From: Tissierellia bacterium
GTDB lineage: Bacteria; Bacillota; Clostridia; Tissierellales; Sedimentibacteraceae
NCBI GenBank assembly: GCA_012843025.1
Contig: DURT01000011.1
Location: 40,997-104,996, forward strand
DNA length: 64,000 nucleotides
Direction: 5' to 3'
Part shown: piece by piece, positions 17,695 through 46,528 of the stretch
Position numbering within the stretch: the first letter of the stretch is position 1
Layout: every line of letters starts with the position of its first letter
Notes under the pieces: generated by a model
Told to the model about the DNA's origin: nothing
Databases searched by the model: none
The model's input: the letters and a program-made list of their open reading frames with translations, nothing else
Made by a program: the position numbers and the translations under genes

Positions 17695-17925
17695 GTTATA
17701 GAAAAGGGCTATCCCATCCAAAGGACGAGATAACCCGTGGTACCACCTTAATTCGCTACTGCCTCTTCCTGATATAACGGTCAGATAAGCCGCCGTACTT
17801 TTCATACAGAACTCCGGAATCGTATTTCACATTTTGTACTGCTAACCTCTCACCAACCGGTCAGCTCTCTGAATTGTAACCAAAATGTTACTTAAGTTCC
17901 TTCATAGTTATAGTAGTATTATAGT
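17695..17925 (-). promoter_or_regulatory. T-box leader for tyrS, specifier UAC (Tyr)
   Basis: Minus strand has AATTAAGGTGGTACCACGGGTTATCTCGTCC; terminator GGGTTATCTCGTCC...GGATGGGATAGCCC then TTTT; specifier region GTGAAA-TAC-GATTCCGGAG. Confidence 0.92.
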
Positions 17926-21899: not shown

Positions 21900-22240
21900 T
21901 AGGGTTAGGGCTATAAAAAAAACCTTTCGTCTCTATATACATACAGATGTATATAGGGACGAAAGGTCTTTCCGTGGTACCACCCTATTTTACGATACAA
22001 AAAAATCGCCTCCTTCAAGTCGAAAAAACATATCCATATAGTTTTTTGAACTCTATCCTTGTAACGCAGGAATACGTCCTTGCTTACTTAATTCAGCTCG
22101 GAAGCTCAGGAGTGATCATTATACTTCATACCATCGGTTCACACCAACCACCGACTCTCTTTAGATACTTCCAAGTACTTTTGTCTCCGTCAACGCTTAT
22201 AGGCTTATATATTTTCCTCATTATAACCATAAACTCTTAG
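21900..22240 (-). promoter_or_regulatory. T-box leader for ilvD, probable specifier AUC (Ile)
   Basis: Minus strand has AAAATAGGGTGGTACCACGGAAAGACC; terminator ACCTTTCGTCCCTATATAC...GTATATAGAGACGAAAGGTTTTTTTT; AATG-ATC-ACTCCTGAG aligned to the tyrS specifier region. Confidence 0.9.
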
Positions 22241-32039: not shown

Positions 32040-32280
32040 TAAAAAAAGCGGGTTTCTTCATCAAAGGACGAGAAAACCCGCGGTACCACCTTATTTCCAT
32101 AATGGCTCTTAGAATATATAACGGTAAACCCGTTTAATCCTACTCTTATTTCAGATTAAATGCTCAAAAGCTACCTTCAGCCCACATTGACCTATGGAAT
32201 CTTACAGCCCGTGGATTCCAATCTCTGCAAGGTTTATGAACCTACTCCTCTTTCTCATTGCAAATATTTAATTACATAAC
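32040..32280 (-). promoter_or_regulatory. T-box leader for valS, specifier GUA (Val)
   Basis: Minus strand AATAAGGTGGTACCGCGGGTTTTCTCGTCC...GAAGAAACCCGCTTTTTTT; specifier region CTGAAG-GTA-GC. Confidence 0.92.
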
Positions 32281-36102: not shown

Positions 36103-36256
36103 AATTCCTCCCTAATAGTCATAACATACAAATAAATATACCACAAAAAATTAATTTTAACTATACTTACGAACAAATTACCCAATCTTATGCCTTATCA
36201 CAATTGACAATTGAACTAGATTGTACTATACTTAACTTAACTTTATATTTCAATAT

Positions 36257-36435
36257 TGGTGCGCTGTAGTGCGATAATAGGGAATTAGGTTAAAATCCTA
36301 AACAGTCCTGCTGCCGTGATGAGATAGCGGTCTTTATGCGATAAGCAACCACTGGATATATCCGGGAAGGTAAAGTAACCGCCATGACCTCTAAGTCGGA
36401 AAACCTGCCAATATTGTTGCGTAAAAGCCGCAAAT
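36257..36435 (+). promoter_or_regulatory. Cobalamin (B12) riboswitch
   Basis: gggaattaggttaaaatcctaaacagtcctgctgccgtgatg and the B12-box aagtcggaaaacctgcc, directly upstream of a BtuFCD-like operon. Confidence 0.92.
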
Positions 36436-42478: not shown

Positions 42479-43798
42479 CTACATAAATATAAACCTTAAA
42501 ACAAATAGTAATGATAGTATCCACATAACCCAAGATATATCCCTGAACTTACCGGATATAAATTTTAAAATTACATATGATACCATTCCAAATACAATTC
42601 CTTCTGCAATACTATATGCGAAGGGCATCATAACTATCGTTAAGAAAGCAGGTATAGCTTCTGTATAGTCATTGAAATCTATTTTTGTTATAGGACTCAT
42701 CATAAACAAGCCTACAATAACCAAAGCAGGTGCAGTTGCAGCTGATGGAACCAATGTGAACAAGGGAGCAAAGAATAATGCAATTCCAAACATTACTGCA
42801 GTAGTAAGTGCTGTCAGTCCTGTCCTTCCACCTTCTGCTACACCAGAAGCACTTTCAACATAGGTTGTAACGGTGCTTGTGCCTAAACAGGCACCTATAG
42901 TTGTACCAATAGCATCTGCCATTAATGCTGCTCCTACTTTTGGCAATTTTCCCTCTTCATCTAACATATTAGCCTTTGTAGCAACGCCTGCCAATGTTCC
43001 AACAGTATCAAATATATCTACGAAAAGAAATGTAAATACTACAACTAACATTTCAAAAGAAAAAATTTGATCGAAACCTACAAATTTAAATGCAATATTC
43101 TTAAGTGAAGGAGGCATGCTTACGATTGTGTTAAAGTTTTCTGGTAAAACAGTAACTCCCATGGGGATTCCGATTATAGTTGTTAGAACTATTCCTATTA
43201 ACAAGGCTCCCTTAACATTTTTTATAAGCAATAATCCTGTAATAATGATTCCTATAATTGCTAATAATGGCTCGCTTGCTGTCACATCGCCCAAAGCAAT
43301 AAGGGTACCATCGCCTGCCTGTACTATTCCGGCTCCAGATAAACCTATAAAAGATATAAATAAACCTATTCCAACAGACACAGCGTTTTTCAAACTTATA
43401 GGTATGGAGTCAAATATTGCTTCCCTAGCTTTTACAACGGATAATAAAATAAATATAATTCCCTCAATTAATACTGCAGTTAAAGCAAATTCCCATGATT
43501 TACCCATAGGTCCTAGCACAACTGTAAATGCAAAGAATGCATTAAGTCCCATTCCTGGTGCTAGTGCAAAGGGATAGTTAGCAAATAAGGCCATCATCAG
43601 TGTTGCAATCATAGCTGCTAAGGCCGTAGCAGTAAATATACCACCAAAATCCATTCCAGTAGATGATAATATGATAGGATTAACAACTAAAATATAGGCC
43701 ATTGTCATGAAGGTTGTAACACCTGCCAAGACTTCTGTTTTTACATCAGTTCTGTGCTCCTCTAACTTAAAAAATTCTTTCAAAGTATTTTCCTCCAT
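42479..43798 (-). CDS. NCS2 (AzgA/PbuG-like) purine permease
   Basis: EVLAGVTTFMTMAYILVVNPIILSSTGMDFGGIFTATALAAMIATLMMALFANYPFALAPGMGLNAFFAF. Confidence 0.93.
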   Translation of the reverse strand: MEENTLKEFFKLEEHRTDVKTEVLAGVTTFMTMAYILVVNPIILSSTGMDFGGIFTATALAAMIATLMMALFANYPFALAPGMGLNAFFAFTVVLGPMGKSWEFALTAVLIEGIIFILLSVVKAREAIFDSIPISLKNAVSVGIGLFISFIGLSGAGIVQAGDGTLIALGDVTASEPLLAIIGIIITGLLLIKNVKGALLIGIVLTTIIGIPMGVTVLPENFNTIVSMPPSLKNIAFKFVGFDQIFSFEMLVVVFTFLFVDIFDTVGTLAGVATKANMLDEEGKLPKVGAALMADAIGTTIGACLGTSTVTTYVESASGVAEGGRTGLTALTTAVMFGIALFFAPLFTLVPSAATAPALVIVGLFMMSPITKIDFNDYTEAIPAFLTIVMMPFAYSIAEGIVFGMVSYVILKFISGKFRDISWVMWILSLLFVLRFIFM

Positions 43799-43830: not shown

Positions 43831-43880
43831 AAAATAAAGATAGCCCGTCAAGGTAGGAAGTGAAACCTACCCGACTGGGC
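43831..43880 (-). terminator. Expression-platform terminator of the tandem riboswitch
   Basis: Minus strand AGCCCAGTCGGGTAGG-TTTCACTT-CCTACCTTGACGGGCT followed by ATCTTTATTTTTT. Confidence 0.85.
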
Positions 43881-43979
43881 TTTTATCCCTTCGGTGTAAT
43901 ACCATACAGTATCTGTACCGCTCGGACCAGCAAGAAATCATAATTAATCCCAAGAAATCTCCGGAACCCTAGGTACACT
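43880..43979 (-). promoter_or_regulatory. ykkC-type aptamer, probable PRPP riboswitch (subtype 2b)
   Basis: Minus strand GTGTACCTAGGGTTCCGGAG...GCTGGTCCGAGCGGTACAG...ACACCGAAGGGATAAAAGCCC carries the ykkC core; context is purine transport. Confidence 0.8.
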
Positions 43980-43980
43980 T

Positions 43981-44052
43981 TCACTCATAGCCAAATGATT
44001 TAAGGTCATTTTGTAGAGACGTCCCAACCATATTATGAGACTTATATGAGCC
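43981..44052 (-). promoter_or_regulatory. Purine (guanine-class) riboswitch aptamer
   Basis: Minus strand CTCATATAAGTCTCATAATATGGTTGGGACGTCTCTACAAAATGACCTTAAATCATTTGGCTATGAG; C at the purine-specifying position (GGCTATG). Confidence 0.85.
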
Positions 44053-44155: not shown

Positions 44156-46528
44156 TTAATTAAACGTCTGTTCTGTTCTTTCAATAATTTCATCCTGCAA
44201 AGCTTTTTCAAGGTTGTTAAAGTGATCGGAATAACCGGCAACTCTTACAATTAAATCCTTGTATTCTTCGGGATTTTTCTGTGCATCCAAAAGTACATCT
44301 CTGTCTATTACGTTAAATTGAATATGGTGACCACCTAATTCAAAATATGACCTTATAAGAGAAGCTACATTTTCTATTCCCTCTTCTCCAGCTATGGCAG
44401 AAGGAGAGAATTTTTGATTCAGCAATGTCCCTCCAGTAGTTGTATGATCCATCTTAGAGCAGGTTTTTATCACTGCTGTAGGACCCTTTATATCTGCACC
44501 CTTTTCTGGAGATATACCATCTGCCACTGGTTTGTGAGCTAATCTTCCGTTGGCAGATGCACCCATTACAGAACCGAAGTACACATGGCAGGTAGTAGGC
44601 AGCATATCTATTTGATAAGTGCCTCCTGTTACAGTCTTTCTTCCCCTTATTATATCCCTTATATCGGTAAATACTTTAACCATTATGCTGTCAGCATAAT
44701 CATCGTCGTTTCCGTACTTAGGAGTATGGTTTGATACTAAGTTTCTAATTTTTTCATATCCTTCATAATTTGCTTCCAATGCTTTCAACAATTCAGGCAT
44801 AGTAAATCTTTTCTCATCAAATATATTGTATTTAATTGATGATAAGCAGTCAGTAATGGTAGAAATCCCTACAATTTGGATATACCTGGTGTTGTACTTG
44901 GCACCTCCTGCATTGTAGTCCCTACCCTTTTCTTTACAACCATCTGTCAACACTGACATAAATGTTGCCGGCATATGCTCTGCAAAAAGTTTTTCTATAA
45001 CATTATTGCCTTTTATTTTAATATTTATTATATAATTTAATTGTTTTAAGAAAGCCTCATATAGTTCTTCATAGGATTTGAAATCTTCAGGATTACCTGT
45101 TTTTAATCCCACTTGCTTATTGGTATATTTGTCAAAACCATTATTTAATGTAAGTTCCAATACTTTAGGTACGTTCAAATATCCCGTTAAGATATATGCT
45201 TCTCTACCGTGACAGCCAGTTTCAACACATCCGCTGGCACCTCCGAATCGGGCATCTTCCAATGTTTTACCTGCATTTAGCAGTTCCTGTATCAATTCCT
45301 CCGTATTGTAAAAGGCAGGCTGTCCCCATCCCTTCCTTGCTATTTCCACTGCTCTTTTCAAAAATTCATCAGGAGTTTTGACACTTATCTGGACATTGGA
45401 GCTGGGCTGCAGAAGCTTTAATTCATCCATGGTATCAAGGATCATGTAGGATACTTCATTTACTCCATCTTCCCCTGTATAAGGATTGATACCACCCGTA
45501 TTAATATTTGCAAAGTCCGTATAGGTTCCGCTTTCCTTTAAAGTTATTCCAACCTTGGGAGGGGCAGGTTGATTGTTAAATTTAATCCATAAACACTCCA
45601 ATAATTCTCTTGCTTTGTGGTAATCTATAGTTCCTGCTTCTTTCTCCTTTTTATAGAAAGGATAAATGTATTGGTCAAGTCTTCCAGGAGAGAAAGAATC
45701 CCAAGTATTAAGCTCTGTAGTAATCCCTATATGAACGAACCAGTACATTTGTAAAGCTTGGGCAAAAGTTTCCGGTTTATGGGCAGGTACTACATCACAG
45801 TTTTTTGCAATCCACAATAATTCCTCTTTTCGCTTAGGGTTAGTTTCCTTTGCCGCCAATTCCCTTGCATAGGCAGCGTATCTTTTACCATAGATTATTA
45901 TTGCATCACAGGAAATTGCCATTGCCTGAAGTTGAGCCTTCTTATCGTAAGCATCAGGATCGTTTAAGAAATCTAATTTTTCTATTTCTTCTTCAATTTC
46001 TCTTTTAAAATCCAAAAAACCCTTTTCATAGATTTTGCCATCTGCCACCGTATGTCCCGGAGCTCTTTGCTCCATAAACTCTGTAAACATACCCGCTTCA
46101 TAGCAATCTTTCCATTCCTGAGTCATTGCTTCAAGGATTTTATACCTCATGGAGCGCTTTTCCCAATAGGGGATAATTTTTTCCTCCTGAAGTTTTTTAT
46201 CCTCTTCCTTAACTTTAAAGCTAATATATTTTCTGTCATTCATTATGGTCATATCTTCCACAGTATGACAGCACAATTCAGGGAATGTGGGAGCAACTTG
46301 TGGACCTTCGCTCTTTTCCCCTACAATTAGTTCATCTTCACCTATATATAGTTTTCTTTTTTCCATTAAATTTTTAAAATTTAAAGCTCTCAATATGGGT
46401 GTTTCTACAGTACCGTAATATTTTTCATAAAATTCTGTCTCTATTAAAGCTCTTTCCAAGCTAATAGATGGTTGTGTAGTTACGCTTAATTCCCTTAATC
46501 TTTTTGTTCTTTCAGTATATCCTCTCAT
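44156..46528 (-). CDS. hypD: Glycyl radical enzyme, probable trans-4-hydroxy-L-proline dehydratase
   Basis: Recalled HypD-like features: EFMEQRAPGHTV, GGASGCVETGCHGREAYILTGYLN, KYGNDDDYAD, glycyl loop VRVAGYSDHFNNLEKALQDEIIERTEQTF. Confidence 0.8.
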   Translation of the reverse strand: MRGYTERTKRLRELSVTTQPSISLERALIETEFYEKYYGTVETPILRALNFKNLMEKRKLYIGEDELIVGEKSEGPQVAPTFPELCCHTVEDMTIMNDRKYISFKVKEEDKKLQEEKIIPYWEKRSMRYKILEAMTQEWKDCYEAGMFTEFMEQRAPGHTVADGKIYEKGFLDFKREIEEEIEKLDFLNDPDAYDKKAQLQAMAISCDAIIIYGKRYAAYARELAAKETNPKRKEELLWIAKNCDVVPAHKPETFAQALQMYWFVHIGITTELNTWDSFSPGRLDQYIYPFYKKEKEAGTIDYHKARELLECLWIKFNNQPAPPKVGITLKESGTYTDFANINTGGINPYTGEDGVNEVSYMILDTMDELKLLQPSSNVQISVKTPDEFLKRAVEIARKGWGQPAFYNTEELIQELLNAGKTLEDARFGGASGCVETGCHGREAYILTGYLNVPKVLELTLNNGFDKYTNKQVGLKTGNPEDFKSYEELYEAFLKQLNYIINIKIKGNNVIEKLFAEHMPATFMSVLTDGCKEKGRDYNAGGAKYNTRYIQIVGISTITDCLSSIKYNIFDEKRFTMPELLKALEANYEGYEKIRNLVSNHTPKYGNDDDYADSIMVKVFTDIRDIIRGRKTVTGGTYQIDMLPTTCHVYFGSVMGASANGRLAHKPVADGISPEKGADIKGPTAVIKTCSKMDHTTTGGTLLNQKFSPSAIAGEEGIENVASLIRSYFELGGHHIQFNVIDRDVLLDAQKNPEEYKDLIVRVAGYSDHFNNLEKALQDEIIERTEQTFN

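Follow-up and report, generated by a model that had tools for sequence, protein, structure and literature searches.

A probable tandem guanine-PRPP riboswitch ahead of a purine permease gene in a Tissierellia bacterium, with a survey of the genes behind such RNAs

A tandem guanine-PRPP riboswitch very probably controls the transcription of a purine permease gene in the Tissierellia bacterium analyzed here (assembly GCA_012843025.1, contig DURT01000011.1). Judging from its architecture and from published relatives, it would act through one terminator shared by both aptamers and as an IMPLY gate, which switches the gene off only at plentiful guanine and scarce PRPP, the precursor of purine nucleotides. 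The window, i.e. the whole stretch of 64,000 nucleotides under analysis, carries on its minus strand a leader of about 270 bases between the gene of a trans-4-hydroxy-L-proline dehydratase (44156-46528; NF043068) and the permease gene (42479-43798, minus strand). Every element that the original prediction had named on this strand was found, namely a purine aptamer, a ykkC-type aptamer, one terminator and a permease gene, and the identity it proposed, a tandem guanine-PRPP riboswitch ahead of a purine permease, is supported by matches to RF00167, to our own PRPP model R1 and to PF00860. Chance is excluded by the E-values of the aptamer matches and by two congeners (L008 and L009) that preserve the entire leader. 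A probable promoter at 44102-44074, consisting of TTGACA and TATTAT 17 nt apart with a TG ahead of the second hexamer (11 of 12 matches in a consensus scan), adjoins the purine aptamer on its upstream side.

The upstream aptamer (44069-43968, minus strand) matched RF00167 with 74.3 bits in the Rfam search of the window (cut-off 37, E 2.5e-11) and, on checking of its junction bases, has the three-way junction with conserved J1/2, J2/3, L2 and L3 that characterizes purine riboswitches. Its P1 helix is formed by CUCAUA (44050-44045) and UAUGAG (43989-43984). In the RF00167 alignment the specificity base at 43990 is C74, which makes the aptamer of the guanine rather than the adenine type, and we identify 44069-43968, from these sequence features, as a guanine riboswitch aptamer. 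Position 73 is a G (A73G) and the L3 loop reads UUAAA in the source genus, where GUAAA is usual. The G before the specifying C had been correctly pointed out in the original prediction, yet it recurs in 13 of the 121 tandem loci considered below, 10 of them outside the source genus (among the matches listed). A73G was accordingly rejected as the mark of a new ligand, given its recurrence in unrelated tandem RNAs.

The downstream aptamer (43982-43862, minus strand) is well supported, by model scores and diagnostic bases, as a PRPP aptamer (ykkC subtype 2b). RF00442, the guanidine-I model, gave just 51.7 bits at 43983-43870, under its cut-off of 63 (E 1.6e-8), and the Rfam 15 search of the window returned no PRPP- or ppGpp-specific match. 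Thus the Rfam check suggested beforehand worked for the purine half and not for the PRPP half, for which we used our own model. A scan of a one-genome-per-species collection provided at least 119 stretches in which AGGGTTCC follows a guanine aptamer; 36 PRPP-like aptamers from tandem stretches, with the source genus left out, made up alignment A1, and model R1 was derived from A1. With R1 the window scored 100.6 bits (E 5e-29), the two congeners L008 and L009 scored 103.3 and 94 bits, and the guanidine-I RNAs of other congeners (n=6) scored 37-50 bits. Among RNAs from 391 sampled genomes of the class, those ahead of purine genes reached about 83-106 bits and those ahead of acetolactate-synthase genes at most 78.6 bits. 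The latter, which from their sequences have a 3' segment two bases shorter, are of the ppGpp type by gene context, acetolactate synthase being a published branched-chain amino acid (ppGpp) context.

A pyrimidine where guanidine-I RNAs have A is diagnostic of the PRPP scaffold, and the equivalent of G96 sets PRPP over ppGpp (PMC6031431). The window has a C at the first of these positions (GAGCG, versus GAGAG in most congener guanidine-I RNAs) and the G at the second (CCCAG), a G that is invariant in A1 and aligned at full score; the invariant columns of A1 are kept. Conserved PRPP-type tails forming the P0 helix, GAAAG and GGUAGGUUUC, bound the aptamer at 43982-43862. All the diagnostic bases are common to the 36 tandem PRPP RNAs of the model, many of which lie ahead of pur genes. 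The assignment to PRPP made in the original prediction, staked there against a ppGpp- or guanidine-type score, therefore held, with 100.6 bits for R1 against 51.7 for RF00442 and the PRPP-type bases in place. Guanidine-I membership was rejected on that subthreshold score and on the C in place of A. Likewise the ppGpp riboswitches (subtype 2a), which are recognized by the absence of the G96 equivalent, were set aside because the G is present. The guanidine-I riboswitches of congeners (L003-L007, L010) share the ykkC scaffold with the window but carry A for C at the diagnostic base, lack both the conserved P0 tails and an upstream guanine aptamer, and precede SMR-type exporters or other genes.

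A single intrinsic terminator hairpin (43881-43842, minus strand, -22.8 kcal/mol), with its U-rich tract at 43840-43829, overlaps the PRPP aptamer. Its 5' arm holds the 3' half of the aptamer P3 (GCCC) plus the conserved GUCGGGUAGG, and its loop doubles as the 3' strand of an extended P0. This helix can be lengthened from GAAA/UUUC to GAGUGAAA/UUUCACUU, with 43986-43979 pairing 43865-43858, and GAG, the first three bases of GAGUGAAA, also ends the guanine P1 at 43984. The aptamer pair and both overlaps, that of the terminator with P3 and the conserved tail and that of extended P0 with the guanine P1, are shown by the leader sequence and by comparison. The P1-to-P1 spacing of the two aptamers is 6 nt, the spacing reported for tandem RNAs being 5-7 nt (PMC5912903), and together with the single terminator overlapping the PRPP aptamer it gives the leader the structure of an IMPLY tandem. 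Folded at full length, the leader has its minimum free energy in the terminator state, and the fold z-scores are modest (-1.5 to -1.65).

Mutual exclusion between the guanine P1 and the P0 of the PRPP aptamer has been proposed from one sequence (PMC6031431), and a 2022 review considered the structural changes in tandem RNAs not established (PMC9481103). P0 pairing was examined in 70 tandem RNAs, all distinct and of standard length, among the matches listed. Each overlap pair forms in most of them (68, 69 and 63 for the three), and the four tested pairs together form in 91% of cases, a value that falls to 38-55% when the partner strand is slid by one or two bases. The middle overlap pair exceeded all 2000 of 2000 shuffles. 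Two other P0 pairs are weaker, 11 and 92 of 2000 shuffles reaching the value observed for them, and the fourth pair, with one invariant side, is uninformative. Double changes were seen as GUG/CAC in L033 and L109, as AAU/AUU in L031 and as U-A to C-G at the base ahead of GAAA. The guanine P1 also covaries across the tandem RNAs among the matches listed. RNAs without a guanine aptamer likewise extend P0, with unrelated sequence (GAAGAAA/UUUCUUC). This covariation favours a switch in which extended P0 and P1 would be mutually exclusive, as support and not as proof, the shuffles leaving kinship in. In an energy model of the leader before synthesis of the 3' arm of the terminator, extended P0 with broken P1 was 3.8 kcal/mol better than P1 with the short P0 and 2.2 above the free optimum, differences that, as modelled, are what a ligand-tipped switch would need.

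The steps taken by the ligands would follow published work on relatives, and the logic is carried over from the Bacillus megaterium RNA. Guanine binding would lock P1 and so weaken P0 and hence the PRPP aptamer, leaving the terminator to form; PRPP binding would lock P0 and P3, break P1 and block the terminator; with neither ligand bound the RNA would read through. The permease would then be off only with guanine plentiful and PRPP scarce. Of the four ligand combinations, only guanine by itself is reported to turn the assayed B. megaterium relative OFF, which stays ON with PRPP, with both ligands or with neither (PMC5912903), and in the 2022 review a single terminator makes the tandem IMPLY and not NOT-A-AND-B (PMC9481103).

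Three other readings were weighed. The original prediction had the permease expressed only when PRPP is high and guanine low, and simple serial OFF-then-ON switches do yield such PRPP AND NOT guanine logic (PMC9481103). This is very unlikely here, for it needs two terminators whereas the window has one, overlapping the PRPP aptamer, a distinction drawn in the same review; besides, the published one-terminator relative is IMPLY: it stays ON when both ligands are absent or both are present, and is switched off only by high guanine combined with low PRPP (PMC5912903, PMC9481103). More improbable still is that the guanine aptamer is vestigial, its specificity altered or lost through A73G, so that PRPP alone controls the gene. 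The G at position 73 and the UUAAA loop of the source genus would fit such decay, but A73G occurs in 10 tandem loci outside the genus among the matches listed, leaders of purine genes included, and the window retains C74, the complete three-way junction and the bases that contact the ligand, at 74.3 bits, in an aptamer conserved in congeners whose P1 covaries across the tandem RNAs among the matches listed. The least probable of the three has the second aptamer sensing ppGpp (subtype 2a) in place of PRPP, which would couple purine uptake to starvation. The two aptamers are indeed very alike, the single change G96A shifting specificity 40,000-fold (PMC6031431); against it stand the G96 equivalent, present in the window within CCCAGUCGGG, the shorter 3' segment and lower scores of the acetolactate-synthase RNAs (at most 78.6 bits, against 100.6 for the window), and the sharing of every diagnostic base with the 36 tandem PRPP RNAs of the model, many of them ahead of pur genes. 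We therefore retain the IMPLY gate with guanine and PRPP as ligands.

The permease product matched PF00860 with 158 bits. Its relatives of known structure, AZG1 and AZG2, are adenine/guanine permeases of plants, and on this ground it is assigned to the AzgA branch of the NCS2 permeases; from its family, a purine base is the predicted substrate. The listed ATG at 43798 stands five codons ahead of a TTG at 43783-43781, which is the likelier start because a GGAGGA ribosome site lies between both and the TTG aligns with the ATG start of the congener gene (L009). The permease gene probably forms a transcription unit by itself, since a terminator-like hairpin (42471-42446, minus strand, from a hairpin scan) follows it and the next gene, cysK, is served by a separate T-box leader at 42353-42126. 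That T-box, ahead of cysK-cysE, is one of four on the minus strand of the window (the others at 17718-17914, 21952-22202 and 32061-32267), and a cobalamin riboswitch lies on the plus strand at 36240-36426 (98.5 bits). The idea that the genome has a solitary permease gate for want of de novo purine synthesis was unsupported, as other contigs carry purF (above cut-off) and a divergent purC-like gene. In part of the genus such a divergent purC-like gene (G000:C29:14682-15311 and several congeners; about 140 bits, below the family cut-off of 189.9) stands in place of the usual purC or beside it.

Among 27 genomes of the family the tandem was found in three, all of the source genus (the source genome, G014 and G019), each time ahead of the same permease, and the whole leader and permease arrangement is kept in two congeners (L008, L009). 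The source genome showed no further purine or ykkC RNA besides this tandem. In a further congener (G003) the permease, 83% identical, is preceded by a guanine riboswitch alone; set beside the tandem congeners, this indicates gain or loss of the PRPP half inside the genus.

A survey of targets covered 121 tandem RNAs once duplicates and chance matches had been taken out (118 among the matches listed, the window and the two congeners). In 110 of them the sequence reached far enough downstream to classify the first gene; the fractions given here are valid for this sample of matches listed. An AzgA permease is the first gene in 52 of 110 loci, another uptake or salvage gene in 16, a de novo gene in 41, and one was unassigned. 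The 16 comprise xpt, mostly with pbuX (12), a BMP-type nucleoside-binding protein (2) and a nucleoside phosphorylase followed by a BMP protein (2), the BMP assignments being made by eye from the sequences, and the 41 are purL (15), purE (12), purD (8) and purC (6). Thirty-two of the 52 permease loci run on into pur genes; the other 20 show none, and 7 of these have at least 2.5 kb of downstream sequence. The AzgA permease is thus the commonest first gene of tandem guanine-PRPP RNAs among the matches listed, and the stand-alone layout of the window is a minority form among them, not a unique one. The novelty of a transporter output, implied in the original prediction, did not survive this survey, and the permease was rejected as a new kind of target.

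Several further observations came from the same matches. Bacilli loci (L016, L026, L032, L036, L126 and others, from Brevibacillus, Alicyclobacillus and Tumebacillus) have the tandem RNA ahead of xpt-pbuX, the classic salvage operon of guanine riboswitches, and xanthine phosphoribosyltransferase itself uses PRPP. In L033 (6713-7999) and L109 the tandem RNA precedes the gene of a BMP-family, purine nucleoside binding lipoprotein, and the strand common to P1 and P0 is altered to GUG with partner strands changed to match. In L059 (2032-3072) one complete tandem guanine-PRPP riboswitch lies ahead of purC and another, about 1 kb away on the same strand, ahead of purL; G090, G190 and G307 each show a pair of PRPP-model matches spaced by about 0.9 kb. 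Two matches from a viral collection (L130, L131) resemble Thermoanaerobacter-type chromosomal leaders with permease genes, and a third (L132) was rejected as a chance match; all three were left out of the target counts, and L130 and L131 entered the P0 pairing input, where they repeat the rows of L070 and L094/L120. Tandem RNAs also occur in Ktedonobacterales and other Chloroflexota (L012, L042, L044, L052, L082, L129), with an AzgA-like permease first in four; their P0 has an internal mismatch and several retain CGAG/CUCG. These loci lie outside the Firmicutes, to which the 2018 paper assigns the tandem class (PMC5912903).

In B. subtilis, pbuG and xpt-pbuX are governed by a guanine riboswitch that works as a simple OFF switch and has no PRPP aptamer; the window likewise has a guanine aptamer ahead of a purine permease gene, and adds the PRPP aptamer. 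By its sequence features the window RNA belongs to the known tandem guanine-PRPP riboswitches. It resembles the B. megaterium codA tandem as described by Sherlock et al. 2018 (PMC5912903), with a guanine aptamer 5-7 nt ahead of a ykkC subtype 2b aptamer and one terminator overlapping the latter, but differs in having a stand-alone purine permease as its target. With the Thermoanaerobacter mathranii tandem RNA and the PRPP aptamer structure (Knappenberger et al. 2018, PMC6031431) it shares the P0 helix, the equivalents of C49 and G96 and the predicted exclusion of P0 and guanine P1; this prediction was drawn from one sequence in that work, and the overlap is supported here by 70 distinct RNAs among the matches listed.

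As targets, the 2018 paper gives in its main text no others than de novo purine genes and codA, and its physiological argument rests on associated genes that include only de novo steps up to IMP (PMC5912903). Permeases are not mentioned in that main text, though its supplements may list them, and among the papers searched none pairs 'PRPP riboswitch' with 'permease' or 'xpt'. Among the matches listed, the survey corrects this picture, at least as the main text draws it, from 'only de novo' to mostly uptake and salvage, the first genes of which bring in bases or use them at the cost of PRPP, and the transporter output of the window is typical rather than new. By comparison across RNAs, the pairing data strengthen the case for a switching mechanism that had been put forward on the basis of one sequence and was called not established in 2022 (PMC9481103). 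We consider it reasonably likely that tandem gates are primarily devices of purine uptake and salvage (AzgA permease, xpt-pbuX, nucleoside transporters), often heading de novo operons and not de novo gates alone, and that their branch point is the guanine P1 strand common to extended P0 and kept by co-evolution, which would open the IMPLY mechanism to strand-swap mutants. Under IMPLY logic, the uptake of bases that are salvaged with PRPP would go on whenever PRPP accumulates, and base uptake would be stopped only if guanine is plentiful and PRPP too scarce for its salvage.
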